DNA of 64,000 bases from Gordonia sp. KTR9 (GTDB lineage Bacteria; Actinomycetota; Actinomycetes; Mycobacteriales; Mycobacteriaceae). Location of the stretch: positions 25,481 to 89,480 of the forward strand of contig NC_018582.1 in NCBI RefSeq assembly GCF_000143885.2, in the 5' to 3' direction. The notes under the pieces are model-generated. The model did no database searches and was not told the DNA's origin. It saw only the letters and a program-made list of their open reading frames with translations. Below, piece after piece: positions 3,896-23,012 of this stretch. The position numbers and the translations under genes were made by a program. The stretch's first letter is position 1, and each line of letters begins with the position of its first letter.

Positions 3896-4224
3896 CCCTG
3901 CCTCGTGCGTCCGGTGTGCCCGCGTCCGGTCGGCCAGCTCGCCGGCCGCGATCGGTTGCGGTCTTGTCTGCCGGCTGCGCCGTCACCTGATCGGAGCGGC
4001 TGCGCCGCGCCCTGAGCCCTTCGGGCAGAGTTGGTTTGCGTTGCCCTGCCGCATTCTCTTACCTCCAGTCGCGGCCCGCAAGGGCGTGAAAAACTAATCC
4101 GCCCTGCGGGTTTCAGGGCTCCGCCCCGGATGACTTTTTCACTTCCTCCCTTGCAGTCCACTCCCTCCGGCAAAGAGATGGCCAGTGCAAACGCAAACCA
4201 GCACTCACAACGGGAGGGGTCACC
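3896..4224 (+). promoter_or_regulatory. repeated upstream module I, copy 1, with long hairpin 4086-4142
   Basis: About 330 bp shared with 7738-8015 and 22678-23012. Common blocks are a TGCGTCCGGTGTGCCCGCGT segment (copies 1 and 3), a CTGCGCCGTCACCTGATCGG segment, a hairpin, and a final block ending in the ribosome site of the next gene. The hairpin has outer arms GTGAAAAACTAATCCG and CGGATGACTTTTTCAC (14 of 16 positions pair) and an inner GCCCT/AGGGC stem. The conserved position before plus-strand genes suggests a promoter or ssDNA-active promoter. Function is inferred. Confidence 0.6.
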
Positions 4225-4455
4225 ATGACCAGCGCCACCACCATCGCCTACCAGCTGTGCAACAGCTGCGCTGTCGCCGTCGCCTACGGAGACATGAGCG
4301 CCCTCGACACCGAGAGCGCCGCCGAGGTCCTGGCTTTCATGGCCGATCACGGCTACCTGACACCCGCTGACGGCATCGACCCGCCCGGTTACTGGCTGTG
4401 CGAATGCTGCGGCATCGACCAACTGGGCGCAGGCCGCACCTTCACCCACGACTAA
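4225..4455 (+). CDS. small putative zinc-binding protein
   Basis: 76 residues. Cys12-x-x-Cys15 near the N-terminus and Cys59, Cys61 and Cys62 in a CxCC cluster near the C-terminus suggest a four-Cys metal site. The ATG follows GGGAGG plus TCACC and lies at the end of module I copy 1. It is first of a plus-strand run (4225, 4486, 4864) with 30-100 nt gaps, probably one transcript with the ParB-like gene. No named family recognised. Confidence 0.65.
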   Translation: MTSATTIAYQLCNSCAVAVAYGDMSALDTESAAEVLAFMADHGYLTPADGIDPPGYWLCECCGIDQLGAGRTFTHD

Positions 4456-4485
4456 CCCTCTGACCAGCCGAAAGGACACCCCACC

Positions 4486-4764
4486 ATGAACGCCTGGATC
4501 GCCACCTACGACCCCGCCAAGGTCAACGAGCTCGCTGACCTCATCGCCGCGCACGAACCGAACCGCCTCACCGAGGCCGACGGTGACCGCGAGTTCGCCG
4601 TGTGGATGTACGGAGTCGACCGCGCCATTCGCAGGCGCACCGACGGATTCAGCCACCGCGACCTGCCCGATTTCGGGTGGCGAGACGCCTACAACGACGA
4701 CCTGTCCCCCACCGACGCCGCCGCCGACGCAATCGCTCACTGGGAGCAGTTCGGCGACCTCTAG
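4486..4764 (+). CDS. hypothetical protein, 92 aa
   Basis: 92-residue acidic soluble protein with a GAAAGGA ribosome site before the ATG. Predicted mostly helical; no Cys clusters or membrane segments. It sits between the Cys-rich small protein and the ParB-like gene in the same direction. I have the impression that such proteins recur on actinobacterial conjugative plasmids, but I cannot name a family. Confidence 0.65.
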   Translation: MNAWIATYDPAKVNELADLIAAHEPNRLTEADGDREFAVWMYGVDRAIRRRTDGFSHRDLPDFGWRDAYNDDLSPTDAAADAIAHWEQFGDL

Positions 4765-4863
4765 AAAAGACCTCCGCGTCGCAATACGGCACGCGGGCAA
4801 CAGAAAACCCGGCCAGGGACTAGCTGGCCGGGGTCTCACCCACCACAGTAAGGGAGAAACCCC

Positions 4864-6447
4864 ATGACACACAACACCACCACCGAGACCGTCACCGCGA
4901 CGGGCGAGCTGCGCCACCTCAACCCGGCCGATCTGGTCATCGACACCAACATTCGCACCGAAGCCGAAGCCACCCTAACCGGCGAGTTCGTCGATTCGAT
5001 CCGCGACGGCGTGCGTCAGCCGATCCTCGCTGTCGAACTCGACGGCGAGGTCCGGGTGCGCGACGGGCAGCGCCGGACCCTGGCGGCGCGTAAGAACGCG
5101 CTCGCCAGCGTCCCGGTCTACGTCGTGCCGGTCGCGACCGACGCCGACGACAAGGCCCTGACGGTGGATCGAATCTTGGAGCAGCTGGCCAGTTTCGAGC
5201 GCGAAGAGTTGCGCGCCTCCGATCGCGTGGCCGCGATCGAACAACTCGCGCTTGCCGGGATGTCGGCAACCAAGATCGCCAAGGCCACCCGCACCAAGAA
5301 GAAGGACGTAGACGCCACTCTGGCGGTCGCGAAGTCCGCGACCGCCCTGGACCTGCTCGACCAGGGCGCAGGGTTGACGTTGGAGCAGTCCGCGACATTG
5401 GCGGCATACGACCACGATCCCGAGGCGCAACAGTGGCTCCTCAGCGCCGCGCGTAGCGGACGGTTCGACTTCCAGGCCAAGCAGTTGGCCGACAATGCCG
5501 ACGAACGGGCCGAGTTGCTGGCCCAGGTCGCCGCCTACGCCGCCGAGGGGATCGCGGCTGTGACCCGCCAGCCCCTCTACAACGAGGCCCACAAGCTCGA
5601 CCGGCTGCTGACCGCCGACGGTAAGGCGGCGACCATCGAGGACGTGCCGGTCGATCACCGCGTGGCCTACGTGTGGGCCGATGAGACCGAATCGTGGACC
5701 GACGCCGAGGGCAACGCGGTCGCCGAGGACACCATCGACTGGTCGCTGGACGACGACGTGTTCGACGACGACACCGAACCGTCCGAGGGATTGGTCGACC
5801 CGCGCGCCCTCACCCGCAACGTCACCCGCGAGATCGAAACCACCTGGTACGTCCTGCGCAACGACCACCTCGGATTCACCGAGCGCCCCTACAGCTACGA
5901 CACCCAGAGCAGCGCCACGGCCGCCGACGACCTCAGCGACGACGAGAAGGAAGCCCGCAAGCAGGAACGTCGCCGGGTGCGGGTCCTCAACGCCGCCAGT
6001 CTCACCGCCCGCGAGGTGCGAATCGAGAAGCTGACCGCGTGGCTGGCCCGCAAGACCCTCCCGAAGGGCAGCGCCCCGACGGTCGCGAAGTTCATCGCGA
6101 CCTCGATGCGCGCCCATCACGACATGTTCGGCGCGAACAGCAGCCAGGGCAACGCCGCCGAGATCGCGGCCACGATCCTCGGCGGCGACCCCGCCGAATT
6201 GATCGAGCAGGCCACCACCGCCGACCGCGCCCAGATCATCGGACTCGGCATCGCCCTGGCATCGCGGGAAGCGCACATGTGGAAAGACGCCTGGCGCAAC
6301 GCCGGTGACAGCCACTACCACGGAAGCTACGTCGACGCCCGCGCCGACTACCTGCACTTCCTCGTCGAGGTGACCGGCTACACCCTCTCCGACGTCGAGC
6401 AGGTCATAGCCGGAGACAAGCAGGCCGCCGACGTGCCACTCGACTAG
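4864..6447 (+). CDS. ParB/RepB/Spo0J-type nuclease-domain protein
   Basis: 527 residues. Residues about 16-90 match the ParB N-terminal domain: 'LNPADLVIDTNIR' opening, 'RQPILAV' strand, and 'RVRDGQRRTLAA', the ParB box II arginine patch that binds CTP or nucleotide in the family. A helical HTH-like region follows (about 110-160, 'MSATKIAKATRTKKKDV'). The remainder is a long acidic C-terminal region that is not typical of a short partition ParB. There is no adjacent parA. It lies between antirestriction-type genes and reads toward oriT, matching the ParB-like leading-region proteins of other conjugative plasmids, so a role in establishment is more likely than classical partition. Confidence 0.8.
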   Translation: MTHNTTTETVTATGELRHLNPADLVIDTNIRTEAEATLTGEFVDSIRDGVRQPILAVELDGEVRVRDGQRRTLAARKNALASVPVYVVPVATDADDKALTVDRILEQLASFEREELRASDRVAAIEQLALAGMSATKIAKATRTKKKDVDATLAVAKSATALDLLDQGAGLTLEQSATLAAYDHDPEAQQWLLSAARSGRFDFQAKQLADNADERAELLAQVAAYAAEGIAAVTRQPLYNEAHKLDRLLTADGKAATIEDVPVDHRVAYVWADETESWTDAEGNAVAEDTIDWSLDDDVFDDDTEPSEGLVDPRALTRNVTREIETTWYVLRNDHLGFTERPYSYDTQSSATAADDLSDDEKEARKQERRRVRVLNAASLTAREVRIEKLTAWLARKTLPKGSAPTVAKFIATSMRAHHDMFGANSSQGNAAEIAATILGGDPAELIEQATTADRAQIIGLGIALASREAHMWKDAWRNAGDSHYHGSYVDARADYLHFLVEVTGYTLSDVEQVIAGDKQAADVPLD

Positions 6448-6461
6448 ACCCGCTGCACGGT

Positions 6462-6489
6462 GGGCCGCGACCTCTCACGGTCGCGGCCC
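6462..6489 (+). terminator. hairpin after the ParB-like gene
   Basis: Perfect 11-bp stem GGGCCGCGACC / GGTCGCGGCCC with a 6-nt loop, starting 15 nt after the stop codon. GC-rich with no clear U-tract, as is common in actinobacteria. Confidence 0.65.
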
Positions 6490-6604
6490 GCTCAACACGC
6501 ACACCCGCCACCCCCGAGGGGGCATAGCGGAGCGACCTGACGGCCGCACAGCGTTGTCCCGGCCCGGTGGCTCCGCTGCGCTGCGCCCCCGGCCCCGGGG
6601 AGAT

Positions 6605-6850
6605 TCCCAGTCAGGTGGGTGGTCACCTATTGCGCGCGCACGTCGACCAAGTGTGACCGACCGGGGGCCCGAACTGTCAACCCACACCAGGCGGCTACCG
6701 CCCGTTCTCCGCTGCGCTCCGCCCGTGCGCTCCAACCACTTTGGTAACCCGCGCTCGCTGCGCTCGCAACCGAAAGTGGCTTCCGGCGCGCCTGCCTCTT
6801 CGGGGTTGACAGCCCACCCTCGTCCGGTCAGCACAGGTCTCTCGACGTCC
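6605..6850 (+). repeat. repeated upstream module II, copy 1
   Basis: About 240 bp nearly identical to 9098-9331. Nested inverted repeats: outer arms CTGTCAACCC (6674-6683) and GGGTTGACAG (6803-6812); inner CCACTTT / AAAGTGG (6736-6779). The outer 3' arm contains TTGACA. It ends shortly before the 123-aa gene at 6889, as copy 2 does before the gene at 9366. Likely a regulatory cassette; not coding. Confidence 0.7.
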
Positions 6851-6888
6851 ACCCACACCGGGCCGGACCACAACGAGAGGACTTTCTC

Positions 6889-7260
6889 ATGGACTACATC
6901 GCTCACACCGTCGACACCGCCGCCGCCATCGGCAGCGTCGCCGATCTGCTCTGGGCCGCCGCCGACCTCGTCGCCACCAACCCCGAGACCGCCGACCCCA
7001 TCCACGACGCCGGCCTGCACCTCATCGCCGCCGGCCGAACCACAGCCCGCCGGGCCGGGGCAGCCCGCGAGCTCGCCACGATGATCGCCGAGAGCCGCCA
7101 CCCCGACCTGGCCGCCACCATCACCGGCGACGACACCGACTGGGCCAGCTGGCAGCAGGTACTCACCGAGCCCTGGCCCATCCTCGCCGACGCCGCCGCC
7201 TTCGCCGCCAAGCTCGGCGGACTCGAAGGCCACATCACCCCCGGACGCTGGATCGCCTAA
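6889..7260 (+). CDS. hypothetical protein, 123 aa
   Basis: Ala-rich, helical, 123 residues; ATG preceded by GAGAGGAC. No signal peptide or metal motif. It is the single gene after module II copy 1 and is closed by a hairpin at 7274-7298, so it is probably an independent transcript. Family not recognised. Confidence 0.65.
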   Translation: MDYIAHTVDTAAAIGSVADLLWAAADLVATNPETADPIHDAGLHLIAAGRTTARRAGAARELATMIAESRHPDLAATITGDDTDWASWQQVLTEPWPILADAAAFAAKLGGLEGHITPGRWIA

Positions 7261-7273
7261 CCGGGCAGCGGGT

Positions 7274-7298
7274 CGGGGTCGCCACCACGGCGGCCCCG
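7274..7298. terminator. hairpin between convergent genes
   Basis: CGGGGTCGCC / GGCGGCCCCG, 10-bp stem with one G-T wobble and a 5-nt loop, between the convergent genes ending at 7260 and 7314. Confidence 0.55.
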
Positions 7299-7313
7299 GC
7301 TCGACCTCTGCTG

Positions 7314-7847
7314 TCATGAGTGATCGGTGTCGGCGCGCCGGCGAATGCGGCGCCGACCACGATCGGCCGCACGGAACACCCGCAACGGCTTGCGCACGCT
7401 CTCCTCGAGATCGAAGGTGAAGGCCCCGATGCGTTCGGCCATGTGCCAGTCGATGTTCCACTGGCTGTCGAGGACCATCATGCGGCCCACGGCGCGGTCC
7501 TCGTCGCCGGACTGATAGGCGTCCTCGCACACCTGACATAGCGCCCACCAACTACCCAGGGTGTGGCCCTTGCCGTACTTGCGGAACCTCGTCTCGTTCG
7601 GGTCCATCGTGTGTAGCCACACCGGCCTCTCGCGCCCGCAGAACGAGCACACCAGATAGCCGTCGTCGTCGACGTCGGCCGATTCATCATCTGGGCTACC
7701 CACAACCGTCACAGTAACCGGCGCGAGCACCGACGGTGCTGCCTCTGGCGGCTGCGCCGCCACCTGATCGGAAGCGGCTACGCCGCCACCCCACCGCATC
7801 GGGGTTGCTTTGCTGACCCCCACCAGTCTTGTACCTCTGGTCGGCAC
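7314..7847 (-). CDS. putative zinc-ribbon protein
   Basis: Up to 177 residues. Cys67-x-x-Cys70 (in 'CSFCGRE', similar to the ClpX-type zinc finger opening) and Cys104-x-x-Cys107 form a CxxC-x33-CxxC pattern. The C-terminus is strongly basic (Arg-rich, last 25 residues), suggesting nucleic-acid binding. The true start is uncertain: the first ~50 residues are low in complexity and are read from the antisense of module I copy 2, so a GTG start nearer residue 40 is possible. It is the only minus-strand gene within this plus-strand block. Confidence 0.55.
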   Translation of the reverse strand: MPTRGTRLVGVSKATPMRWGGGVAASDQVAAQPPEAAPSVLAPVTVTVVGSPDDESADVDDDGYLVCSFCGRERPVWLHTMDPNETRFRKYGKGHTLGSWWALCQVCEDAYQSGDEDRAVGRMMVLDSQWNIDWHMAERIGAFTFDLEESVRKPLRVFRAADRGRRRIRRRADTDHS

Positions 7848-8015
7848 GGCGGCAAGGGCCGCGAAAAACTAATCCGCCCTACGGGTTTGCAGGGCTGCGC
7901 CCCGGATGACTTTTTCACTGTGAACACCCTTGCCCCGACCTCCCGCCGGCGAAGACATGGCAGGTGTCACGCAAAGCACCGGCCCGCCGAGGCCGACACT
8001 AGGGAGGCATCCACC
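7738..8015 (+). promoter_or_regulatory. repeated upstream module I, copy 2, with hairpin 7863-7916
   Basis: Shares the CTGCGCCG(C)CACCTGATCGG block and the hairpin of copies 1 and 3. Hairpin arms are GAAAAACTAATCCG and CGGATGACTTTTTC, with inner GCCCT/AGGGC and loop ACGGGTTTGC. It lies directly before the ardC-like gene. It overlaps the 5' end of the antisense zinc-ribbon gene. Confidence 0.6.
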
Positions 8016-8957
8016 ATGGCCCGTACCGCCACCATCAGCCGCGAAGACCGAGCCGCCGCACGCCGCGAACTCGCCGCGCAGCTGCACGCGACCATCACCG
8101 ACAAGGTCGCCGCACTCACCGGTACCGACGAGTGGGCCGCGTTCCTCGACTACGCCACCAAGTTCCGCACCTACAGCCTCAACAACCTCATGCTGATCCT
8201 CGCCCAGCGCCCCGACGCCTCCCAGGTCGCGGGGTACAACAAATGGCTCGAACTCGGACGCCACGTCCGCAAGGGCGAAAAGGCGATCCGGATCCGCGGA
8301 TTCAGTTCCCGCAAGATCACCGACACCGACCCCGAGACCGGCGACGACACCGAACGCAAGATCGCCACCTACCCGATCCTGTCCGTGTTCGACATCGCCC
8401 AGACCGACCCCATCACCGAGGTCACCGACTGGATGCGCAAAAAGAACCCCAAGGCCCGAGTCTGGGTCGACCTCGCCAGCCCCGCCCACACCCTCATCGG
8501 TGACGACCCCGCCGACATCTACAGCCGCACCGTCGACTACATCACCGCCCAGGGCTGGACCGTCAGCCGCGAACAGATCCCCGAGACCGGCACCAACGGG
8601 TACACCACCACCGACGGAACACGCCGTATCGTCATCGCCGCCGACCTCACCGACGCCCAGGCCGCCAAGACCATGCTGCACGAGAGCGCCCACGCCCTCA
8701 TGCACACCGACATCGACACCGCCGACTACATCGCCCACCGCGGCCGCTGCGAAGTCGAAGCCGAATCCGTCGCCTACGTCGCCGCCGGAATGCTCGGAGT
8801 CGACACCAGCGACTACAGCATCGGCTACATCGCCGGATGGGCCGAAGGCAACACCGACGTCATCGCCGACACCGCCGCCCGCGTCCTGACCACCGCCCGC
8901 CAAATCGCCGCAGCACTCGACCCCGACACCCTCACCGACACAGAAGACGCCGCCTAA
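8016..8957 (+). CDS. ardC: ArdC-like antirestriction protein
   Basis: 313 residues from the ATG at 8016, preceded by AGGGAGG; an earlier in-frame start at 7887 would lie inside the regulatory hairpin. The N-terminal half (about 40-160) is an ArdC-type ssDNA-binding domain ('SLNNLMLILAQ', 'GYNKWLELGRHVRKGEKAI'). The C-terminal half is a zincin-like metallopeptidase domain with His222-Glu-Ser-Ala-His226 and a downstream Glu in 'CEVEAES'. In the ArdC family this architecture protects incoming single-stranded plasmid DNA from restriction. Placement after module I and its orientation toward oriT fit expression early after transfer. Confidence 0.88.
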   Translation: MARTATISREDRAAARRELAAQLHATITDKVAALTGTDEWAAFLDYATKFRTYSLNNLMLILAQRPDASQVAGYNKWLELGRHVRKGEKAIRIRGFSSRKITDTDPETGDDTERKIATYPILSVFDIAQTDPITEVTDWMRKKNPKARVWVDLASPAHTLIGDDPADIYSRTVDYITAQGWTVSREQIPETGTNGYTTTDGTRRIVIAADLTDAQAAKTMLHESAHALMHTDIDTADYIAHRGRCEVEAESVAYVAAGMLGVDTSDYSIGYIAGWAEGNTDVIADTAARVLTTARQIAAALDPDTLTDTEDAA

Positions 8958-8967
8958 CCCGAGCATC

Positions 8968-8990
8968 GGGGCCGCCCGACCGGCGGCCCC
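8968..8990 (+). terminator. hairpin after ardC-like gene
   Basis: GGGGCCGCC / GGCGGCCCC, perfect 9-bp stem with loop CGACC, 11 nt after the stop codon. Confidence 0.6.
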
Positions 8991-9097
8991 AGCCGGGAGG
9001 CACAGCGGACCGGCCCGGCGGCCGCACAACATTATCCGGTGGTGGCCGGCGACTTCGCTACGCTCCGCGCCGGCCACCACCGGGAGTCAAAAGCCCT

Positions 9098-9331
9098 ACT
9101 CAGGTGGGTGGTCACCAACAGCAGCGCACACGTCGACCAAGTGTGACCGACCGGGGACCCGAACTGTCAACCCACACCAGGCGGCTACCGCCCGTTCTCC
9201 GCTGCGCTCCGCCCTTGCGCTCCAACCACTTTCACTCGCTACGCTCGTATGACGAAAGTGGCCTCCGGCGCGCCTGCCTTCTTCGGGGTTGACAGCCCAC
9301 CCTCGTCCGGTCAGCACAGGTCTCTCGACGT
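9098..9331 (+). repeat. repeated upstream module II, copy 2
   Basis: Second copy of the block at 6605-6850. Outer arms CTGTCAACCC (9164-9173) and GGGTTGACAG (9286-9295) are unchanged; the inner hairpin CCACTTTC / GAAAGTGG (9226-9261) keeps its stem while the loop sequence differs from copy 1. Precedes the gene at 9366. Confidence 0.7.
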
Positions 9332-9365
9332 TCGCAACCCTGCGAACCCAATCGAAGGAGTCACC

Positions 9366-9623
9366 ATGGCTTGGACCATCACCAACATCGACGTCACCCC
9401 GGCGGCCCGCGAGATCATCCGAGCCACCAACGTCCTCGACAGCGCGAGCGCCGACAATGCGCCGGCACTCATCGACATCGCCAACATGCTCGACCTCAAA
9501 ATGTCGGAGTGGGCACTGGGACTCGCCGAACTCCTCACCCACGGCCACGCGATCATCGTCGCCGACGACGACAACCGCGAATGCCTCATCCTCACCACCA
9601 CACCCATCTACGGAACGGCCTAG
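9366..9623 (+). CDS. hypothetical small protein, 85 aa
   Basis: 85 residues from the ATG at 9366, preceded by GAAGGAGTCACC; an upstream in-frame start at 9249 would lie in the repeated module. Acidic, predicted mixed helix/strand, no membrane segment. Start context is like the genes at 37 and 4225. Its stop codon overlaps that of the convergent gene ending at 9620. Function unknown. Confidence 0.6.
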   Translation: MAWTITNIDVTPAAREIIRATNVLDSASADNAPALIDIANMLDLKMSEWALGLAELLTHGHAIIVADDDNRECLILTTTPIYGTA

Positions 9624-10165
9624 CCCGGGGCTACGCCCCCGGGCGCTTCGCGCCCGGGGGCGTAGCCCTCGCCGTTCTCGTTCGCGATATCCGCCCATTT
9701 CGCCGCATTTTGGGCCTCCGCCTGAACCAACGCCGAATCCAACGCCTTCCGGCCTTCTGGAGTCAGGGTCAGCCGTACAAGCACCTCACCATCAGGACCC
9801 TCAACGTCCGCACGTTCAAAAACGCCCATATCGATAAGTCTGCCAAAGGCAGTAGAGAGGTAAGCATTCTCGTGTATATCCAATCCGCCTAAGTTAGAAA
9901 TGGCTTGCATGGACATCCGTGAGAAATGCGCCGAAATCTCCGCTGCCGCACGGTCAAGATTCAACGATTCGCGTTCCTGTCTCGCTACAAATAGCGAAGC
10001 AATAGCACCTACAACCGCGGCGAGCGCTGCGAGCACTGATCCCCATATGCCAACCTTCGAGCCCTGGCTGGTCAGAGCGAACAGCACAGTCGGAACCATC
10101 ACACCGATCACACCAACGCCTATAAAAACGGTCGATTGCCGAAGCTGCGCTAGTCGTTCTTTCAC
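9620..10165 (-). CDS. membrane protein with possible winged-helix-like C-terminal region
   Basis: 181 residues, GTG start at 10165. Two transmembrane segments (about residues 12-32 and 38-58), then a cytosolic helical region with 'SNLGGLDIHENAYLSTAFGRLIDMGVFERADV' character and a 'LTLTPEGRKALDSA' ending like a winged-helix wing. The last 16 residues (Ala-Pro-Gly rich) are read through the 19-bp palindrome at 9628-9668, so the C-terminal tail may be accidental. The start overlaps the stop of the upstream 40-aa gene (GTGA), indicating translational coupling. Confidence 0.6.
   Translation of the reverse strand: MKERLAQLRQSTVFIGVGVIGVMVPTVLFALTSQGSKVGIWGSVLAALAAVVGAIASLFVARQERESLNLDRAAAEISAHFSRMSMQAISNLGGLDIHENAYLSTAFGRLIDMGVFERADVEGPDGEVLVRLTLTPEGRKALDSALVQAEAQNAAKWADIANENGEGYAPGREAPGGVAPG
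9628..9668. terminator. 19-bp perfect stem, bidirectional terminator-like
   Basis: Arms 9628-9646 and 9650-9668 are perfectly complementary over 19 bp with a TTC loop; the core is CCCCCGGGCGC. It lies at the junction of two convergent genes and inside the 3' end of the minus-strand one. A bidirectional terminator is the simplest reading. Confidence 0.7.
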
Positions 10166-10284
10166 ACCAGCCCAAAAGCCTCTGCGCCTTCCACGACATT
10201 TCTACCACTCGCAACAACGGCTGTAACTCCGGCAACGACAAGAGGTATCAGTACAAACCGAAGCCAATCTCCCCAGGTAAACAT
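10162..10284 (-). CDS. 40-aa single-helix membrane peptide
   Basis: ATG at 10284, 40 residues, one hydrophobic helix ('FVLIPLVVAGVTAVVA'). Its TGA overlaps the GTG of the downstream 181-aa membrane gene (GTGA), which is the main reason to believe it: the pair would be translationally coupled. No family recognised. Confidence 0.4.
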   Translation of the reverse strand: MFTWGDWLRFVLIPLVVAGVTAVVASGRNVVEGAEAFGLV

Positions 10285-10321
10285 ACGGAGAGTATGACGA
10301 ACACAAACCGCAACTACTAGT

Positions 10322-10375
10322 GCTGCCGCGACACCAAGCCCTCCCGAACCCGCGTCGCTCCCGCACAATCACCTT
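10322..10375. repeat. 54-bp direct repeat, copy 2
   Basis: Copy of 3842-3895 with two mismatches. What follows (10376 onward) differs from module I and leads into the IS110 left flank, so this copy may mark where the insertion cut a module. Confidence 0.7.
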
Positions 10376-12430: not shown

Positions 12431-12437
12431 GGGCAGA

Positions 12438-13851: not shown

Positions 13852-13891
13852 TGGTCGAGTGCTGTGGTGTCTCGCACACGCAACCGCTCAA

Positions 13892-15598: not shown

Positions 15599-15615
15599 CC
15601 ACGAAAGGGCCACCA

Positions 15616-16026: not shown

Positions 16027-16265
16027 TCCCGTTGCATCTGTTCGATATGCAGTGCTTTACCGGACATAATCCCTAATCGGCGCTAAACGGGGGCGAGTGT
16101 AATTGCTAGGCAGTGGATTTGGATTGGACGCGGTCTTCAGTGAAGTATTCGACGGACTTCTCGTGACCCCGGCAGTACGGTCGCGGGCGCTGTTCACGAG
16201 CACACCGAGACGCCGGCGCGCGGCAATGGTGGGCGACTGCGATCGGCTTCGGCTATCATCTTCAT

Positions 16266-16354
16266 CGGGCGATGGATCTCCGCCCGGATACCGTCGAATC
16301 GGTATCTGAACCGCCTCGACCGAGGCTGATGGCTCCTTTCCGATACGGAAGGAG
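16266..16354 (+). promoter_or_regulatory. fluoride (crcB) riboswitch with RBS-sequestering hairpin
   Basis: Contains the class-defining GGGCGATGG...CCGCCC, then GAACCGCC and GGCTGATGGCTCC blocks in order (16266-16336), followed by CTCCTTTCCG (16333-16342) able to pair with CGGAAGGAG (16346-16354). The second arm contains the ribosome site of the first crcB gene. Fluoride binding would hold the CTGATGGCTCC strand in the aptamer and free the ribosome site. A TATCAT -10-like element lies at 16254. The 16027-16253 stretch before it holds no gene that I can support. Confidence 0.85.
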
Positions 16355-16362
16355 TCTGCCCT

Positions 16363-16851
16363 GTGAACGACCGACATGATCCCGCCTCGCCGTTGTCGAT
16401 CGACCCCGACAGTCCCCCGCTGCCCGCCGCCACACCCCTGCATTTCAGTCCCGCCGCGGTCGCCGCGGTCGCCGCAGGCGGTGTGGCTGGTACGTGGCTG
16501 CGGTATCAACTCGGCGTCTGGTTTCCCCACACGGCGGGCACGTGGCCGGCTACGACGTTCGTCATCAACATCGGCGGCGCGTTCCTCCTCGGTCTCCTCC
16601 TCGAAGCGTTGAGCAGGCTCGGGCCCGACACCCGCTGGCGGCAACGGGCTCGCCTGGCGGGGGGGACCGGCCTGCTGGGCACATTCACCACCTACAGTGC
16701 CCTCGCAGTTGACACCACCGAACTCTTGCGCGACCAGCTCACCGCCGCAGCGGTGGCCTATGCGTTAGGCACCGTCGTCGCCGGCGTGGTTGCTGCGGTC
16801 GCCGGTATCGCGGTCGGAGCGCGTGTACGCGGCTCGGAGGAGAGGCGGTGA
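16363..16851 (+). CDS. crcB: CrcB/Fluc fluoride channel, subunit 1
   Basis: 162 residues, GTG start 8 nt after GGAAGGAG. A Pro-rich N-terminal extension of about 30 residues precedes four membrane helices. Fluc signatures: 'TFVINIGGAFLLGLLLEAL' (channel Asn) and 'GGTGLLGTFTTYSALA' (Phe box and polar track). Overlaps the second crcB by 4 nt, as usual for heterodimeric fluoride exporters. Under the upstream fluoride riboswitch. Confidence 0.93.
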   Translation: MNDRHDPASPLSIDPDSPPLPAATPLHFSPAAVAAVAAGGVAGTWLRYQLGVWFPHTAGTWPATTFVINIGGAFLLGLLLEALSRLGPDTRWRQRARLAGGTGLLGTFTTYSALAVDTTELLRDQLTAAAVAYALGTVVAGVVAAVAGIAVGARVRGSEERR

Positions 16852-17213
16852 CGCCGTTGTGGATTGTGCTGTCCGGAAGCTTCGGCGCCGTGAGCAGGTT
16901 CGTCCTCGACGGTGTAGTCAGAACGCGTATTCGCGGCGAGTTTCCCTGGGCGACGTCGCTGATCAACGTGACCGGATCGCTAATCCTTGGATTCGTCACA
17001 GGTCTCGTGCTTTTCCACGGCGCGCCCGACGACGTGCAGCTGATCGTCGGTGTCGGATTCTGCGGCGGCTACACCACATTCAGTACGGCGAGTTTCGAAA
17101 CGGTGCAACTGATCCAGCGCGGACGCTACGGGGCCGGCGCGGTGAACGCTTTCGGTTCGTTGGCTGTCACTATCGCCGCGGGCGGCGCGGGCCTCGCACT
17201 CGCTGGTCTATGA
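16848..17213 (+). CDS. crcB: CrcB/Fluc fluoride channel, subunit 2
   Basis: 121 residues, GTG start inside the previous stop (GTGA). Four membrane helices; 'SLINVTGSLILGFVTG' and 'GFCGGYTTFSTASFE' are the paired Fluc motifs. Together with subunit 1 it should form an antiparallel heterodimeric fluoride channel exporting fluoride from the cytosol. Confidence 0.93.
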   Translation: MTPLWIVLSGSFGAVSRFVLDGVVRTRIRGEFPWATSLINVTGSLILGFVTGLVLFHGAPDDVQLIVGVGFCGGYTTFSTASFETVQLIQRGRYGAGAVNAFGSLAVTIAAGGAGLALAGL

Positions 17214-17222
17214 GGAGGCGCG

Positions 17223-17765
17223 ATGACCGACCACCATCACCATCAGACGGACCCGACGGACCCGCCACCGCGGGAAAAGCTGCGGGACTGGCGAAGCCCC
17301 CTATACGTGGACGGTCCCAGTGCCGGTGAACCCGACTGCCATTTGGTCGTCGGCTTCGATCGACATCCCGCCAGCCACACCGCGTTGACGTACGCGATTA
17401 ACCTCGCCGCACGCCTCGACGGATACCTGCACGTCGCGCACATCGTCGACAACGACGATCTGCCGATCGACCCGGACAGCGACGATTGGGAACAACGCAT
17501 CGCCGATGCCGTCGAATCCGAACGCGTCGATGCCTGCACTATATTGGCCGAGAGCCGCGGGAACTGGACCTACTACTCGCGGGAAGGAACACCTTCCCAC
17601 CTGCTGACCGCCATCGCAGACGCCAATGACGCTCTGATGATCGTTATCGGCGCTTCCCGCGGCGGCGTCATGTCGCTGATGGAGCGTTTCCTTGGCGAAT
17701 CGGTGTCCTCCGCCCTGGTCCATCACGCCCGGCGTCCGGTGTTGCTGGTGCCCGCCGCGCACTGA
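17223..17765 (+). CDS. universal stress protein, UspA family
   Basis: 180 residues, 9 nt after crcB. A His-rich N-terminus (HHHH at 4-7) and a ~35-residue extension precede a single Usp domain: 'LVVGFDRHPASHTALTYAINLAAR' and the ATP-binding 'IGASRGGVMSLMERFLGES' plus 'RRPVLLVP'. Co-transcribed with the fluoride channel genes; probably part of the fluoride response, exact role unknown. Confidence 0.88.
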   Translation: MTDHHHHQTDPTDPPPREKLRDWRSPLYVDGPSAGEPDCHLVVGFDRHPASHTALTYAINLAARLDGYLHVAHIVDNDDLPIDPDSDDWEQRIADAVESERVDACTILAESRGNWTYYSREGTPSHLLTAIADANDALMIVIGASRGGVMSLMERFLGESVSSALVHHARRPVLLVPAAH

Positions 17766-17776
17766 CCGCCGCAGCG

Positions 17777-17880
17777 ATGGATACCGACGACACCGGTCGC
17801 GAGGACGCTCAGAATCGGCGATGGCTCACCCCCGGCGTCCTTGGCATCGGTGCCTCGCTGTTCAGCGACTCGAGCAGCGA
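17777..17880 (+). pseudogene. 5' fragment of an MFS transporter
   Basis: The first ~34 residues ('NRRWLTPGVLGIGASLFSDSSSD') resemble the start of MFS transporters with a 'GxxxxxFFSDS' first helix. The reading then runs into unrelated sequence next to the IS110 remnant. It was probably the fourth gene of the fluoride operon, cut by the insertion. Confidence 0.5.
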
Positions 17881-17929
17881 TACGCCGGAGGATCATCCAG
17901 GGCCGCGTACTCAGATGGGCAGTCACAAC

Positions 17930-18600
17930 AGCTCACTTTGCCACGAGTGCTCCTGTGGCGTGGCACTTGGCTAGCGGGCGAGTTCGTAAGCTGTCTGCAG
18001 TCGTCGCACGTGCTCTCGGGCCTGGTGCAGCTCGCGGCCGGGCAGACCGTCGTCCTGCCCGGAGAGGAGGCAGCGACCGCTCGCCTGGTGACCGCAGCGG
18101 CAGCCTCTCTGACTCTGCTCACGCGCCAGATCGCCGACGTAGACAAACAGATCGCCGAGGCTACGGGTCGGCGCCGCCACGCTCGCATATCGCAGTCGGT
18201 CCCGGGTATCGGGACGATCGGAAGTGTCGAACTGATTTCCTACACCGGGGGTGACCTCGAATCCTTCGGATCAGCAGCCAAACTTGCCGCATACGCCGGA
18301 CTCGCCCCAGTGCTCCATGACTCCGGAAACCGGCATGGAGTCCTTCGACGACCGCAGCGCTATCACCGCGGACTACGCAAGGTCTTCTACATGGCCGCCC
18401 TCAGCAGCGCCCAGTGCGACGGCCCGTCGCGCGAGTTCTACCAACGTAAGCGCACTGAGAAACGCTCACACGGCCACGCCCTCATTGCACTGGCGAGACG
18501 GCTGGTAGACGTCGTGTGCGCTGATCCGCGACAACCGAGAATGGACACCCACGCCGAACCCACGCTTAGCGTCAACGGCCGCCTGGGCTATCGCCGACGG
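17930..18600 (+). pseudogene. degenerate IS110-family transposase remnant
   Basis: From about 18033 the translation matches the C-terminal half of the intact transposase at 10604 ('QTVVLPGEEAATA', 'SVPGIGTIGSVELISYTGGD', 'GSAAKLAAYAGLAP', 'RGLRKVFYMAALSSAQ'). The N-terminal DEDD domain is missing, an upstream piece is in another frame, and a 2-bp deletion near 18510 shifts the C-terminus ('VDVVCADPR' in place of 'VDVVWALLRD'). Inactive. Confidence 0.8.
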
Positions 18601-18607
18601 TGCCGGT

Positions 18608-18970
18608 TCAGCAGCACCCTGTGGTGGCGCTGAGAACGCTGCGTAGCGCTTCCAATGACTCTGGCCGTGCGTGGTAGTAGACGTTCATTCCTCGTCGGTC
18701 AGGTGCGACCATGCCGGCCTTGCGGAGTTGCCCCAGGTGGTGGCTTGTGGTGGCTTCGGTGAGGCCGACCGCGGTCGCGAGGTCGCAGGTGCAGATCCCG
18801 TTCCCGGTGTCGGCGAGCAGGATCGAGACGAGTTTGATCCGGACGGGATCGGCCAGCGCCTTGAGCCGCAGAGCGATTTCTAGGGCGGTGTCGTCATCGA
18901 GCGGGGCCGCGGATACCGGCGCGCAGCAGATCGGGGCACTGATGTCGACCATCGGCAAGGTCTTCGGCAT
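18608..18970 (-). CDS. arsR: ArsR-family metalloregulator
   Basis: 120 residues. Winged HTH with 'ALADPVRIKLVSILL', metal-type Cys pair in 'GICTCDLA', recognition helix 'TEATTSHHLGQLRKAGMV', and wing 'RRGMNVYYHA'. Extra Cys pairs occur at the N-terminus ('ICCAP') and C-terminus ('GCC'). Divergent from arsI; the two share a 99-bp promoter region with ATATGTC repeats. Predicted arsenite/organoarsenical-responsive repressor. Confidence 0.9.
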   Translation of the reverse strand: MPKTLPMVDISAPICCAPVSAAPLDDDTALEIALRLKALADPVRIKLVSILLADTGNGICTCDLATAVGLTEATTSHHLGQLRKAGMVAPDRRGMNVYYHARPESLEALRSVLSATTGCC

Positions 18971-19069
18971 GACCCAACCCTACCCTCGTCCTTGACATAT
19001 GTCGAAAAGGTGGGCACCCTGCATGGTGACCGTAGTTCGATATATGTCTCACAGGTGAAGGTGATGGTC
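18971..19069. promoter_or_regulatory. divergent arsR/arsI promoter and ArsR box region
   Basis: Contains a GACATATGTC palindrome (18994-19003), a TTGACA -35-like element reading toward arsI (18992-18997), and a second ATATGTC near 19042-19048. Paired ATATGTC sites between divergent arsR and arsI suit ArsR operators. No convincing -10 was identified. Confidence 0.5.
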
Positions 19070-19555
19070 ATGTCCCGTATGCAGCTCGCGCTCAATGTCG
19101 ATGATCTCGATACCGCGATCGAGTTCTACTCCAAGCTGTTCAGCACCACCCCGGCCAAGCGCAAGCCGGGATACGCCAACTTCGCGATCGTCGAGCCGCC
19201 ACTGAAGCTGGTCCTGCTGGAGAATCCCGGCCAGGGCGGCACGATCAACCATCTCGGCGTCGAGGTGGAGTCCAGCGAGAAGGTGCACGCTGAGATCGCC
19301 CGCCTGTCCGGCGAGGGCCTGTTCACGCAGGAGGAGATCAACTCCACCTGTTGTTTCGCGACGCAGGACAAGGTGTGGGTGACCGGGCCGGCGAAGGAGA
19401 AGTGGGAGGTCTACACCGTGCTGGCTGATTCCGACACTTTCGGCACCAGCCCGAAAGTGTTGGAGCAGAACGCTGTTGATGGCGCCGAGCAGGGTTCGGT
19501 GTGCTGCGGCGGCAACGCCGCCGAACCGGCTCAGGAGCGCACGGCCTGCTGCTGA
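19070..19555 (+). CDS. arsI: ArsI/CadI-family C-As lyase (VOC superfamily)
   Basis: 161 residues from the ATG at 19070, 8 nt after AGGTGAAGG. Vicinal-oxygen-chelate fold with 'LALNVDDLDTAIEFYSKLF' start, 'NHLGVEV' metal His, vicinal Cys pair in 'INSTCCFATQDKVW', and 'WEVYTVL' metal Glu. The ArsI C-As lyase splits methyl groups from trivalent methylarsenicals; close relatives are annotated CadI. Cys-rich tail ('VCCGG', 'ACC') may bind arsenic. Confidence 0.85.
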   Translation: MSRMQLALNVDDLDTAIEFYSKLFSTTPAKRKPGYANFAIVEPPLKLVLLENPGQGGTINHLGVEVESSEKVHAEIARLSGEGLFTQEEINSTCCFATQDKVWVTGPAKEKWEVYTVLADSDTFGTSPKVLEQNAVDGAEQGSVCCGGNAAEPAQERTACC

Positions 19556-19578
19556 GGGGTCGCGGCTCGCGCTCTCGC

Positions 19579-19989
19579 CTACCGTGCGATGCGGTCGGCG
19601 AGGGTGCGGATCCGGTTGGTGATGTCGTCGCGGATCAGCCGCATCCGTTCGATACCGTCGATGCCCCGTTCGGAGGGTTCGTCGGTGTTCCACACCTCGA
19701 GGGCGACGCCGTCGGGTGGGGTGACGTCGGCGGTGCCGACCACCACGACGAGGTCCGCAGCTTGCATTAGGTCGTCGGTCAGTTGGCGCGGTTGATGTCC
19801 GGCGACGTCGGCGCCGACTTCGGCGAGTACCTGGGCGGACAGCTCGTTGACCTGGCCGCCGATTTTCGCGCTGGTGCCGGCCGAGGACGGGGTGATCCGG
19901 TCGGTGACTGTCGGTGTGAGGTGTTCGGCCATCACCGATTTGCCGCGGTTGGACACGCACACGAACAGCACCTGCGGTGGTGTGCTCAC
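19579..19989 (-). CDS. ArsC-like protein of the LMW-phosphatase fold, CX5K variant
   Basis: 136 residues from GTG at 19989, overlapping the upstream arsC stop by 4 nt. P-loop is 'FVCVSNRGKSVMAE': Cys-x5-Lys-Ser in place of the canonical Cys-x5-Arg-Ser. Downstream 'EVWNTDEPSE' takes the place of the usual 'DWxxxDP' acid loop. The Arg-to-Lys change may be a lineage feature of actinobacterial ArsC-like proteins. Last gene of the arsR-acr3-arsC-arsC operon. Enzyme activity uncertain. Confidence 0.7.
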   Translation of the reverse strand: MSTPPQVLFVCVSNRGKSVMAEHLTPTVTDRITPSSAGTSAKIGGQVNELSAQVLAEVGADVAGHQPRQLTDDLMQAADLVVVVGTADVTPPDGVALEVWNTDEPSERGIDGIERMRLIRDDITNRIRTLADRIAR

Positions 19990-20411
19990 TGGCCGACCTG
20001 CTGATCGGCGGGTACCAGTTCGTTGAGCAGGTCCGCGACGAGTCCGCGGATCTGATCGCGGATCGGGCGGACCGCGTCGATGCCTTGGCCGGCTGGGTCG
20101 TCGAGGGCCCAGTCCCGGTAGCTGACGCCGGGGAACACCGGGCATGCATCGCCACAGCCCATGGTGATCACCACGTCGGAGGATTCGACGGTGTCGGGGG
20201 TGAAGATTCTCGGTGACTGTGCGGAGATGTCGATACCGGCTTCGGCCATCGCCTCGACAGCGGCCGGGTTGATCGAGTCAGCTGGGGCTGATCCGGCGGA
20301 GCGGACCTCGACCCTGCCCTGGCTCAAGGCGGTGAGGAAGCCTGCGGCCATCTGCGATCGGCCAGCGTTGTGGACACACACAAACAGCACACTAGGCCGA
20401 GAGGAAGACAT
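19986..20411 (-). CDS. arsC: arsenate reductase, LMW-phosphatase fold
   Basis: 141 residues from the ATG at 20411. Canonical P-loop 'FVCVHNAGRSQMA' (Cys-x5-Arg-Ser), 'VRSAGSAPAD', 'VITMGCGDACPV' with the Cys pair, and acid loop 'YRDWALDDP'. Probably an arsenate-mycothiol transferase-type enzyme, given the actinobacterial context. Follows another arsC at a 41-nt gap. Confidence 0.9.
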   Translation of the reverse strand: MSSSRPSVLFVCVHNAGRSQMAAGFLTALSQGRVEVRSAGSAPADSINPAAVEAMAEAGIDISAQSPRIFTPDTVESSDVVITMGCGDACPVFPGVSYRDWALDDPAGQGIDAVRPIRDQIRGLVADLLNELVPADQQVGQ

Positions 20412-20452
20412 GAGACACAAGCCCTTTCAGCTGTGAAGGAACATCAGATACG

Positions 20453-21136
20453 TCACACACGTTCGGTGGTGAGTTCGGTGAGAAGAGCACGAACTCGGGC
20501 GTCAAGGTCGTCGCGGATCGCGCGAACCTCGTCGAGGGGACGGCCCTGGGGGTCTGAGACCGTCCAGTCCAGATAGCGTTTGCCGGGATAGATCGCGCAC
20601 GCGTCGCCGCAGCCCATCGACACCACCACGTCGGCGGCGGCGACTACATCGTCGGTGAGCGGTTTGGGGTACTGCGTGCCCAAGTCGACGCCGATCTCGG
20701 TCATTGCTTCGACGACGGTCGGGTTGATCGAGTGCGCGGGTGCCGATCCGGCTGAGCGCACGTGTACCCGCCCGGCCGCGTGGTGGGTCAACAATCCGGC
20801 GGCCATCTGCGAGCGGCCGGCGTTCTGCACGCAGACGAAGAGAACCTCGGGCACATCCTTGGGTACCGCCCCCGCCGCCTGGGCCAGGGCGCGTAACCGA
20901 TCAGCCGCGAATCGTCCCGCCAAGGTCGTCAGATGTGCGTGCACCCGGGAGGTGCGCCGTAACGCGGTGTAGGACTCAAACACACAGCGTTCCACCGTCT
21001 GGCGAGACACCACACCCTCGTACTTGGCGGCCAGGTCAGCGGCAGTGCGGGCGAGCACGGTATGGGGCATCAACAGCTCGGGTTGGGCGCGGTGTTCGCC
21101 GCGACTCAGTTGCCCGTTCAACACATTCTCAGGCAT
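20453..21136 (-). CDS. arsC: arsenate reductase with N-terminal helical domain
   Basis: 227 residues from the ATG at 21136, which overlaps the end of acr3 by 8 nt. Residues about 20-85 form a three-helix region ('LAAKYEGVVSRQTVERCVFESYTAL'), found fused to ArsC in mycobacteria and relatives. The C-terminal ArsC domain has 'FVCVQNAGRSQMA', 'VVSMGCGDACAI' and 'YLDWTVSDP'. Probable mycothiol-dependent arsenate reductase. Confidence 0.9.
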   Translation of the reverse strand: MPENVLNGQLSRGEHRAQPELLMPHTVLARTAADLAAKYEGVVSRQTVERCVFESYTALRRTSRVHAHLTTLAGRFAADRLRALAQAAGAVPKDVPEVLFVCVQNAGRSQMAAGLLTHHAAGRVHVRSAGSAPAHSINPTVVEAMTEIGVDLGTQYPKPLTDDVVAAADVVVSMGCGDACAIYPGKRYLDWTVSDPQGRPLDEVRAIRDDLDARVRALLTELTTERV

Positions 21137-22232
21137 CGGGAACGGGCTCCTTCGATACATCTGGGCTGGAGGCGGTGGTCGGGCTGGTGAAGCGTTTCCG
21201 CAGTGCCAGGGACACGTAGACGAGGGCAACGAGGACGGGCACTTCGATGAGTGGGCCGATGACTCCGGCCAGGGCCTGGCCGGAGGTTGCACCGTAGGTG
21301 GCGATCGCGACGGCTATCGCGAGTTCGAAGTTGTTGCCGGCGGCGGTGAACGCGAGCGTGGTGGTGCGTTCGTAACCGAGCCCCATCGCGGCGCCGAGGA
21401 CGAATCCGCCGCCCCACATAACCGCGAAGTAGATCAGCAGCGGGAGCGCGATCCGCACGACGTCCCAGGGTTGCGAGGTGATCTGTTCGCCCTGTAAGGC
21501 GAACAGGATGACGATGGTGAAGAGCAGCCCGTAGAGGGCCCACGGACCGAGTCGCGGGAGGAACGAGGATTCGTACCAGTCGCGGCCTTTGGTTCGCTCG
21601 CCGATGCGGCGGGTCAAATAGCCGGCGACCAGGGGGATTCCGAGGAAGATCAGGACCGATTTCGCGATCTGCCACGGCGAGGTGTCGATGGTGGTCTGTT
21701 CCAGGCCGAGCCATCCGGGTAGCACCGAGAGGTAGAACCAGCCCAGCACGGCGAACATGATTACCTGGAACACCGAGTTGAGTGCGACGAGGACGGCCGC
21801 GGCTTCGCGGTCGCCGCAGGCCAGGTCGTTCCAGATGATGACCATCGCGATGCATCGGGCCAGACCGACGATGATCAGTCCGGTCCGGTACTCCGGTAGG
21901 TCGGGGAGCAGGAGCCAGGCCAGCGCGAACATCAACGCGGGTCCGACGATCCAGTTCAGCAGCAGCGATCCCAGCAGCAGGCGACGATCGCCGGTGACCG
22001 AGTCGAGTCGGTCGTAGCGCACCTTGGCCAGCACCGGATACATCATGATCAGCAGTCCGAGGGCGATCGGCAGCGAGATGCCGTCGAGTTCGACCGCCGC
22101 CAAAGTGTCACCCAGGCCGGGGACGACTCGACCGAGCAGCAGTCCGGCGACCATCGCGGCGCCGATCCACACCGGCAGAAACCGGTCCAGCGTCGACAAC
22201 TTGCCCGCGACCGCGGTGTCGGTGGCGGTCAC
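21129..22232 (-). CDS. acr3: Acr3-type arsenite efflux permease
   Basis: 367 residues, about ten membrane helices. Conserved Cys in 'GLARCIAMVIIWNDLA', 'VALNSVFQVIMFAVLGWFYL', and 'FTAAGNNFELAIAVAIA' near the C-terminus are Acr3 landmarks. Exports arsenite across the inner membrane. Overlaps arsR by 4 nt upstream and arsC by 8 nt downstream, so one tight transcript. Confidence 0.93.
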   Translation of the reverse strand: MTATDTAVAGKLSTLDRFLPVWIGAAMVAGLLLGRVVPGLGDTLAAVELDGISLPIALGLLIMMYPVLAKVRYDRLDSVTGDRRLLLGSLLLNWIVGPALMFALAWLLLPDLPEYRTGLIIVGLARCIAMVIIWNDLACGDREAAAVLVALNSVFQVIMFAVLGWFYLSVLPGWLGLEQTTIDTSPWQIAKSVLIFLGIPLVAGYLTRRIGERTKGRDWYESSFLPRLGPWALYGLLFTIVILFALQGEQITSQPWDVVRIALPLLIYFAVMWGGGFVLGAAMGLGYERTTTLAFTAAGNNFELAIAVAIATYGATSGQALAGVIGPLIEVPVLVALVYVSLALRKRFTSPTTASSPDVSKEPVPDA

Positions 22233-22591
22233 TGGTCCGCCTCACACGACCGCGTTTCCCCCACGACCGTGGCGAGATCCCGCAGCAGGTCCGACAGTTG
22301 TTGCAGCGCTTCGGTGTTCACGCGGTAGTACACCCAGGTCGCGCGGCGCTCGCTGGTCACCAGACCCGCCTGGCGCAGCACCTTCAGGTGATGCGAGATC
22401 GTCGGCTGCGACAGCTCGAACGGTCCCGAGATGTCGCACACGCACGCCTCGCCGCCCGGATGCGCAGCGACCTCCGACAGCAACCGCAGCCGAACCGGAT
22501 CCGCAAGCGCCTTCAGCAGTGGGGTGACAGCCCCGGTCTCGACGCTACTGAGGCCGCGGCCCGGTGGCAGCAGGAGATTCTTATTCGACAC
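22229..22591 (-). CDS. arsR: ArsR-family repressor of the acr3 operon
   Basis: 120 residues from GTG at 22591. 'ALADPVRLRLLSEV', metal site 'EACVCDI', recognition helix 'SQPTISHHLKVLRQAGLV', wing 'RRATWVYYRV'. Cys-x-Cys in the α3 helix is the classic arsenite site. First gene of the operon; a TGTGTCAATATTTACGTGTG-like stretch just upstream is a candidate operator. Longer in-frame extension to 22723 lacks HTH character. Confidence 0.9.
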   Translation of the reverse strand: MSNKNLLLPPGRGLSSVETGAVTPLLKALADPVRLRLLSEVAAHPGGEACVCDISGPFELSQPTISHHLKVLRQAGLVTSERRATWVYYRVNTEALQQLSDLLRDLATVVGETRSCEADQ

Positions 22592-22677
22592 ACGTAAATA
22601 TTGACACACATCGATGCAGGCGACAAGACGACTGATCTCGACGAAGCGGGCTTGCCTTCCCGCATTGAGATCCACGT

Positions 22678-23012
22678 CTGCCTGGTTGCGTCCGGTGTGC
22701 CCGCGTTCCCGAAATGAGGTCACCGAACGCGACTGGTCGCGGTCTGTCTGCCGGCTGCGCCGTCACCTGATCGGAAGCGGCTACGCCGCGCCCCGGGCCC
22801 TTCGGGCTGAGTTGGTTTGCGTTGCCCCGCTCATTCTCTTACCGCCACTCCCGTGCCGCAAGGGCGCACAGCGAAAAACTAATCCGCCCTACGGGTTACA
22901 GGCCTCCGGCCCGGATGACTTTTGTCGCTGTGACCCTGGCGGCCCACTCGCGTCGGCGAAGAGATGGCCGGTGCAAACGCAAACCAGCACTCACAACGGG
23001 AAGGGGTCACCA
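22678..23012 (+). promoter_or_regulatory. repeated upstream module I, copy 3, with hairpin 22867-22932
   Basis: Third copy. The hairpin base differs from copy 1 (CACAGCGA here, GTGAAAAA there) but the partner arm changes with it (TCGCTGTG), so pairing is conserved by compensatory change. The inner part is ACTAATCCG...CGGATGACT as in the others. Ends with GGGAAGGGG, the ribosome site of the LPD29 gene. Confidence 0.65.

Follow-up and report, generated by a model that had tools for sequence, protein, structure and literature searches.

Predicted single-strand promoters in foldback modules before plasmid genes of Gordonia and Rhodococcus

The virion RNA polymerase of phage N4 recognises single-stranded DNA hairpin promoters with a three-base loop. 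Among plasmids, experimental work supports single-strand promoters in F and ColIb-P9, both of Escherichia coli (PMC9849209, PMC8708921). Like the modules described here, the ssi promoters of ColIb-P9 (IncI1) are situated before leading genes, and ssi activity depends on secondary structure (PMC8708921). Stimulation by the single-strand-binding protein SSB has been reported for Frpo (PMC11541004), the corresponding element of F. In Gram-positive bacteria, the EGeRS of pLS20-family plasmids are also repeated sequences, which govern establishment operons in anti-defence islands; their authors judged a single-strand promoter highly unlikely on two points, namely no promoter in the fold and the nicked strand (PMC8708921). 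Samuel et al. showed a Gram-positive island in which a first search revealed no sequence significantly similar to Frpo. The present analysis concerns a 64,000-nucleotide (nt) stretch of Gordonia sp. KTR9, hereafter the window, which is part of a contig of 89,480 bp (NC_018582.1) with plasmid-like content. It contains three copies of a foldback element, module I, and no others could be found in the whole genome by BLAST. Together with two further modules, R and II, these elements are read here as predicted single-strand promoters of the leading region.

The modules resemble F Frpo (Frpo1 and Frpo2, ssi) in the leading-region gene order toward oriT and in a long foldback of the transferred strand (T-strand) just before leading genes, which in F is present as two copies before two operons. 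In both, the T-strand is the more stable one; in F this amounts to -119.6 kcal/mol against -111.7 kcal/mol for the coding strand, in a 482-nt stretch before ssb. An A+T-rich tip stem and -35/-10 boxes rebuilt in the stem are also shared (PMC9849209), as is the order of tip A-tract, -35, -10 and base, with the A+T-rich UP element of Frpo preceding its -35 (PMC11541004). However, no sequence similarity could be observed between modules I, II and R and Frpo1 or Frpo2 (best E value 0.50). The modules are also shorter, approximately 180 nt compared to the 328 bp of F Frpo (PMC9024699) inside a repeated stretch of approximately 460 nt. They are GC-rich, with a branched tip carrying C(GNA)G minihairpins and a mispaired -10 of the form NANA(A/C)T, and their hosts are Actinomycetota with MobC/PF03432-type or MobF relaxases. 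By sequence the modules lie outside the Frpo family, and by predicted function they are Frpo-like. They differ from the N4 promoters, which combine a phage polymerase with a minimal hairpin, in having bacterial sigma-type -35/-10 elements. Both points raised against EGeRS are answered here by prediction, a promoter in the fold and a location on the nicked strand. No earlier report of single-strand promoters in Actinomycetota appeared in the titles and abstract beginnings among the matches listed, and the word stem actinobacteri- was absent from the main text of PMC11541004.

The original prediction had claimed three hairpins in the window as an actinobacterial analogue of Frpo. Direct inspection of the sequence located all three, although the parts described were only the tips of longer elements. 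Each element is a foldback of approximately 175–190 nt which ends just 5' of a start codon. The elements and their promoter-like motifs are as follows.

4030–4202, minus strand: module I copy 1, whole foldback on the predicted folded T-strand, with tip hairpin 4088–4140 (fold, alignment and covariation)
4053–4058, minus strand: -10 element GAGAAT of copy 1, within TTGCGG-N17-GAGAAT on the minus-strand reading of the upstream arm
4076–4081, minus strand: -35 element TTGCGG of copy 1 (motif scan)
~7802–7986 (ends approximate), minus strand: module I copy 2, whole foldback (fold)
7825–7830 and 7850–7855, minus strand: -10 element AAGACT and -35 element TTGCCG of copy 2, spacer 19
22811–22988, minus strand: module I copy 3, whole foldback (fold)
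22833–22838 and 22856–22861, minus strand: -10 element GAGAAT and -35 element TTGCGG of copy 3, spacer 17

When folded as single-stranded DNA, the gene-template (minus) strand of copies 1, 2 and 3 was far more stable than its shuffled versions (z = -6.05, -4.21 and -7.15, with none of 200 shuffles as stable in each case). The plus strand, folded over somewhat longer stretches, reached z = -2.3, -2.9 and -3.8. From base to tip, module I consists of an outer stem, the -10 region, a partly paired spacer, a CAAGGG/CCCTTG stem, an A-tract stem with C.C and A.G mispairs, and a branched end. In the outer stem, GTTGGTTTGCGTTGC is paired with GCAAACGCAAACCAGC; the corresponding arms of copy 2 are GTTGCTTTGC and GCAAAGCAC. 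The branched end had been predicted as a conserved inner GCCCT/AGGGC stem, but instead it consists of two mini-hairpins, CCC-TNC-GGG and GGCC/GGGC/GCCC-TNC-complement, the TNC loops of which are kept in 23 and 22 of 24 aligned rows. The two central mismatches had been regarded as invariant, which is true of C.C (24/24 aligned copies) and less so of A.G (20/24).

The compensatory change proposed between copies 1 and 3 could be confirmed by reading the sequences, and it holds family-wide. In the 24 aligned rows of module I, 9 of 35 pairs had changed on both sides compared to 4.1 in shuffled alignments, and 30 double-changed cells were counted compared to 9.4, values reached by none of 500 shuffles. 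The covariation was also strong in the 20 rows of module R, the foldback found mainly in Rhodococcus, with 11 of 23 pairs changed on both sides (5.5 shuffled) and 36 double-changed cells (8.3 shuffled; 0/500 shuffles as high). Comparison of sequences also revealed compensated changes in the outer stem, which lie outside the covariation count. The module I alignment (A1) comprised 24 of the 28 copies then known, of 39 later, leaving out three near-duplicates and the degenerate copy L014_31543; the module R alignment (A3) comprised 20 of 35 copies after rows more than 96% alike were dropped, a 36th copy having missed the anchors. RNAalifold on MAFFT alignments recovered the structure only in part, and the module I helices were therefore written from single-sequence folds; those of module R were based on single folds and partly on the RNAalifold result. 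Both families were tested by counting.

Pairing exceptions reveal which strand is folded, since wherever one strand has a G.T pair the opposite strand has an A.C clash. Among the non-Watson-Crick cells of both alignments, read on the plus strand, 38 were A.C, 8 were G.T and 32 were neither, which argues that selection keeps the minus (gene-template) strand foldable. C(GNA)G triloops showed the same polarity, with 68 of 92 loops on the minus strand of folded module I compared to 0 of 89 on the plus strand, and 21 of 59 compared to 2 of 55 in folded module R. GNA triloops are described as extraordinarily stable DNA minihairpins (Yoshizawa 1997, as cited in PMC6479982). The minus strand was also more stable than the plus strand in 39/39 module I copies (mean difference -10.9 kcal/mol) and in 35/36 module R copies, whereas control sets of 150 random stretches from each of two window parts gave mean differences of -1.3 and +0.7 kcal/mol (standard deviations 5.3 and 5.5). 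A long T-strand stem is thus supported by covariation and by strand polarity. Further mini-hairpins with TNC loops, which read GNA on the minus strand, occur just upstream of each copy (3965–4025, 7744–7800 and 22747–22806), and on the plus strand C(TNC)G and C(GNA)G loops number 21 and 7 in positions 1–31000 and 6 and 7 in 34400–64000.

The promoter signature was evaluated on U', the minus-strand reading of the upstream arm, which a folded T-strand would use as its non-template strand. The motif TTGNNN-N14..21-NANA(A/C)T was present on U' in 32/39 module I copies, with spacers of 16–19, and TTGNNN-N14..19-NANAAT in 29/36 module R copies, with a spacer of 16 in all 29. On the downstream arm, the arm that would serve in double-stranded DNA, neither family showed the signature (0/39 and 0/36), so that in the pooled families it occurred on U' in 61/75 copies and on the other arm in 0/75. 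The background rate in 13 loci, module copies included, was one per 4,704 strand-bases for the first motif and one per 11,166 for the second. A(-11) and T(-7) were invariant in the aligned rows of module I (24/24) and module R (20/20). These are the two non-template bases that are flipped out by sigma. At the -11 position, the downstream arm of module R carried C in 17, G in 1 and T in 2 of 20 rows and never A, which indicates that -11 is mispaired in the stem. The start codon followed a fixed module point at 18–37 nt in 36/39 module I copies and at 30–48 nt in 31/36 module R copies. The stem thus contains -35 and -10 elements spaced as in a promoter, with T(-12) absent.

The orientation of the modules to transfer was assessed from the predicted oriT and the relaxase genes.

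31220–31257, minus strand: predicted oriT, comprising an inverted repeat and the nick region ATAACTTG|CTCCC, with the nick placed between 31225 and 31224
31382–31879, plus strand: NikA/MobC-like relaxosome protein gene (Pfam)
31880–33943, plus strand: relaxase gene, PF03432, MobA/VirD2-like (Pfam)

Upstream of the NikA/MobC and relaxase genes, an inverted repeat is followed by CTTG|CTC on the minus strand. A loose nick pattern, applied identically to both strands, matched the minus strand in 10/10 MobC-relaxase plasmids, one site each, and the plus strand in 1/10 (L072). A strict consensus matched the minus strand in 6/10 plasmids and the plus strand in 0/10, the window reading TAACTTGC. Among these ten plasmids, only L069, L070 and L072 are typed MOBP by PLSDB, the window was assigned by PF03432 and NikA/MobC, and the other six by annotation. 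The reported MOBP nick consensus is (C/T)ATCCTG(C/T) with a repeat immediately 5' (PMC3772185), and CTTG|C-type nicks are tabulated in PMC7755788. A different candidate, the inverted repeat with CCGTCCCTG on the plus strand (31256–31267), has a pattern that occurs twice in the window compared to 0.9 expected by chance; it was dropped, as six other plasmids show that the block common to different subgroups is GCGGGAGCAAGNTAT, i.e., CTTG|C on the minus strand. Based on the placement of the nick motif, the T-strand is most likely the minus strand, which would enter toward lower coordinates with the relaxase gene last, as is typical (PMC11541004). This polarity is inferred from the motif together with the gene layout, in which all 28 copies counted (14 plasmids, of which 10 have module I and 4 module R; strands and places entered by hand) lie on the strand of the relaxase gene and upstream of it. 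The count excluded L004, L005, L006 and L071, where the relaxase lies outside the fetched stretch, as well as two additional pGCWB2 (L009) copies and any partial matches. Motif and layout agree that the genes behind the modules are templated by the predicted T-strand; for the MobF plasmids the layout was used. A gene for a SIR2-domain protein (28992–30977, minus strand), possibly a defence gene, adjoins the predicted oriT and has the predicted T-strand as its coding strand.

Taken from sequence, the probability that each module is a single-strand promoter, switched on from the incoming strand, is estimated at roughly 80%. The nicked minus strand would enter the recipient 5' end first and leading region first, and each module on it would fold back on itself. 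In the resulting stem, U' would be the non-template strand, carrying the -35 TTG and the -10 NANA(A/C)T, and the downstream arm would be the template. Host RNA polymerase with the housekeeping sigma factor would bind this stem, where the mispaired -10 would help opening, and transcription would run outward from the hairpin base into the genes for ArdC, DUF4192, LPD29-DUF3560, ParB-like and small proteins. Upon second-strand synthesis the arms would pair with their complements, the half-promoters would be separated and expression would stop; such a shut-off at conversion to the double strand has been proposed for F (PMC9849209). The fold, its covariation, the foldable strand, the -35/-10 signature with its bias toward one arm, and the way the modules are placed and oriented relative to oriT and the genes were computed here, and covariation, the template sense of the T-strand and the arm-biased signature support the proposed analogy with Frpo. 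From these we infer polymerase recognition, transcription, shut-off and an early anti-defence benefit.

The genes behind the three copies are as the original prediction had them.

4225–4455, plus strand: first gene after copy 1, coding for 76 amino acids (aa), Cys-rich on inspection, without Pfam match
4864–6447, plus strand: ParB-like leading-region gene, 527 aa, TIGR00180 weak and below cut-off, relatives annotated ParB-type
8016–8957, plus strand: ArdC anti-restriction protein gene, ArdcN and Peptidase_M78 (Pfam)
23013–23585, plus strand: LPD29-domain gene (Pfam)
23620–24630, plus strand: DUF3560-domain gene (Pfam)

Copy 1 leads through the 76-aa gene to the weakly ParB-like gene, copy 2 precedes ArdC and copy 3 precedes LPD29-DUF3560. 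Pfam analysis of the first open reading frames (ORFs) behind module I (n = 34) gave DUF4192 in 6, Peptidase_M78 in 5, ArdcN in 4 and LPD29 in 2, and behind module R (n = 34) DUF4192 in 7, ArdcN in 6, Peptidase_M78 in 6 and DUF6573 in 1; the remaining first ORFs behind both modules had no Pfam match. The ORF start sites were chosen by script, so that small ORFs may be wrong, and a truncated ORF of L078 was omitted (from A5). DUF4192 and ArdC are common to both module families, and DUF4192, with 13 of 68 first ORFs scanned, is a candidate establishment or anti-defence family. At least one paper among the matches listed pairs DUF4192 with the term conjugative.

All module I copies studied came from Gordonia. 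With copy 1 as blastn query, 13/13 matched plasmid records were from Gordonia, and with copy 2, 13/14, the remaining one being a 45-base match in Paracoccus; copy 3 matched no phage records. A covariance model of the 24 copies detected module I in 11 of 59 Gordonia genomes, among them that of the window. Across the order, the same model found it in 2 of 397 genomes, both Gordonia, and in none outside this genus (strict filters, 8 candidates scored per genome). After removal of duplicates, 39 distinct copies remained, all from Gordonia. One copy (L021, G015:C1) lies on a chromosome-size contig of 5.3 Mb, possibly in an integrated conjugative element.

Module R had no significant sequence similarity to module I (best E value 0.056), and one Gordonia contig (G034:C213) holds both. 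Its foldback stands before ardC in five Rhodococcus plasmids (L069, L070, L071, L072 and L074) and also before DUF4192 in four of them. Matches occurred in 112 plasmid records, with at least 80% of the query covered in 75, and by genus the 112 were Rhodococcus 79, Prescottella 26, Nocardia 3, Mycolicibacterium 3 and Gordonia 1. Module R was placed in at least 48 of 401 genomes of the family and 10 of 31 genera, both lower bounds with two candidates scored per genome. Module II is a third foldback of the same design, with two copies in the window.

6634–6848, minus strand: module II copy 1, arms GAACTGTCAACCC / GGGTTGACAGCCC, before the ORF at 6889
9124–9331, minus strand: module II copy 2

By eye, the U' of module II reads TTGACA-N19-CACACT, and GCACAG stands on its other arm. 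It shares a patch with one module R copy (E value 2e-9) and matched 50 plasmid records, including Prescottella and 13 from Mycobacterium, of which only 7 were covered over at least 80% of the query. For Prescottella, Nocardia, Mycolicibacterium and Mycobacterium, the module matches are those among the matches listed only.

Several observations weigh against a promoter role. The -10 lacks T(-12), with G or C in 43 of 44 aligned rows and A in one, and the motif as written is missing in 7/39 module I and 7/36 module R copies. In the module I alignment, 95.9% of 831 cells pair compared to 52–59% when the partner is slid by one base, an advantage that is built in, as the helices were drawn from folds of these same sequences; the copies moreover share ancestry, and the counts overstate independence. 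The minus strand is also the more stable one in 27 of 30 ardC upstream stretches of the order, which makes this difference weak evidence alone. The original prediction had expected the hairpin before ardC and LPD29 genes elsewhere. This was borne out by a hairpin of like design before ardC in the five Rhodococcus plasmids and by a module I copy that precedes LPD29 in a further Gordonia plasmid, but the hairpin does not precede every ardC. Upstream of Arthrobacter ardC there was no module and the strand bias was opposite (+4.4 kcal), upstream of Tomitella ardC (-8.7 kcal) the module was absent and a different short hairpin was present, and 28 of the 30 ardC loci sampled in the order, with start sites guessed by script, lacked the signature. 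The two that bear it are the window's own locus and L040. In L040 (G088, from another family of the order), ardC is situated behind a module-I-like foldback with TTGCAG-N17-GACACT on the template strand, which hints at a wider spread.

Among other explanations, the modules could be origins for complementary-strand synthesis, in which RNA polymerase or a primase makes the primer on the folded T-strand and gene expression has secondary importance. This agrees equally well with the evidence on strand, fold and promoter, and Frpo itself is credited with both transcription and primer synthesis (Masai and Arai 1997, title; PMC9024699). It is nevertheless unlikely as the principal role, given the near-constant spacing to the start codon, the placement of each repeated copy before a separate gene, and the recurrence of the same gene families behind two module sequence families. 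By analogy, second-strand priming may be an additional role of the modules. Structured mRNA leaders (riboregulator, attenuator or translation control) transcribed from an ordinary upstream promoter would also be situated just before start codons, and the plus strand does fold better than its shuffles (z -2.3 to -3.8). In such leaders the plus strand would be kept foldable, but its pairing exceptions (8 G.T, 38 A.C) favour the minus strand, to which the C(GNA)G loops are also nearly confined, and even with RNA parameters the minus strand folds better in 39/39 module I and 36/36 module R copies. The modules had no Rfam match at the gathering threshold, where the only match of the window was an unrelated fluoride riboswitch (RF01734, 16259–16345, 37.6 bits). 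This explanation is considered very improbable. A slightly poorer account is that U' serves a divergent upstream gene as an ordinary double-strand promoter, the downstream arm being an operator or relic. A divergent gene is indeed next upstream of 18/28 module I copies by eye (annotated plasmids and window), but the upstream gene is co-directional in the other 10/28, and both the long covarying complementarity of the arms and the spacing to the right-hand gene would be left unexplained. If the modules were copies of a small REP- or attC-like element, mobile or recombination-related and without promoter role, they would also be dispersed, multi-copy and hairpin-forming on many plasmids, but a single orientation to the relaxase (28/28), the fixed start-codon distance and the promoter invariants make this hardly credible.

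We lean towards the view that single-strand promoters arose independently in Mycobacteriales. Two or more families lacking significant sequence similarity (module I, and module R with its distant relative module II) would have converged on one anatomy with a capped tip, an A-tract, a -35 stem, a mispaired -10 in which A(-11) and T(-7) never vary, and an exit at the base. The plasmids concerned would be those of Gordonia and Rhodococcus and, among the matches listed, of Prescottella, Nocardia, Mycolicibacterium and Mycobacterium. If this is true, early, self-limiting expression from the incoming strand would be a general solution reached through unrelated sequences, and plasmid genes expressed early in Gram-positive bacteria could be recognised by this anatomy independently of sequence. 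Anti-defence genes could then be expressed before the second strand is made, which would explain how ArdC is present before restriction acts. Candidate anti-defence genes could be listed by position alone, and DUF4192, LPD29, DUF3560 and the 76-aa family would be unrecognised establishment or anti-defence genes. The constancy of A(-11) and T(-7) across two families that lack significant similarity makes the promoter-opening model directly testable on a single-stranded template.

Two further repeats were observed in the window. A 54-nt direct repeat with 96% identity occurs at 3842–3895 and 10322–10375, approximately 6.5 kb apart, the first of which adjoins module I copy 1, and a tandem array of a 15-base repeat (39631–39910) is situated inside the transfer-gene region.

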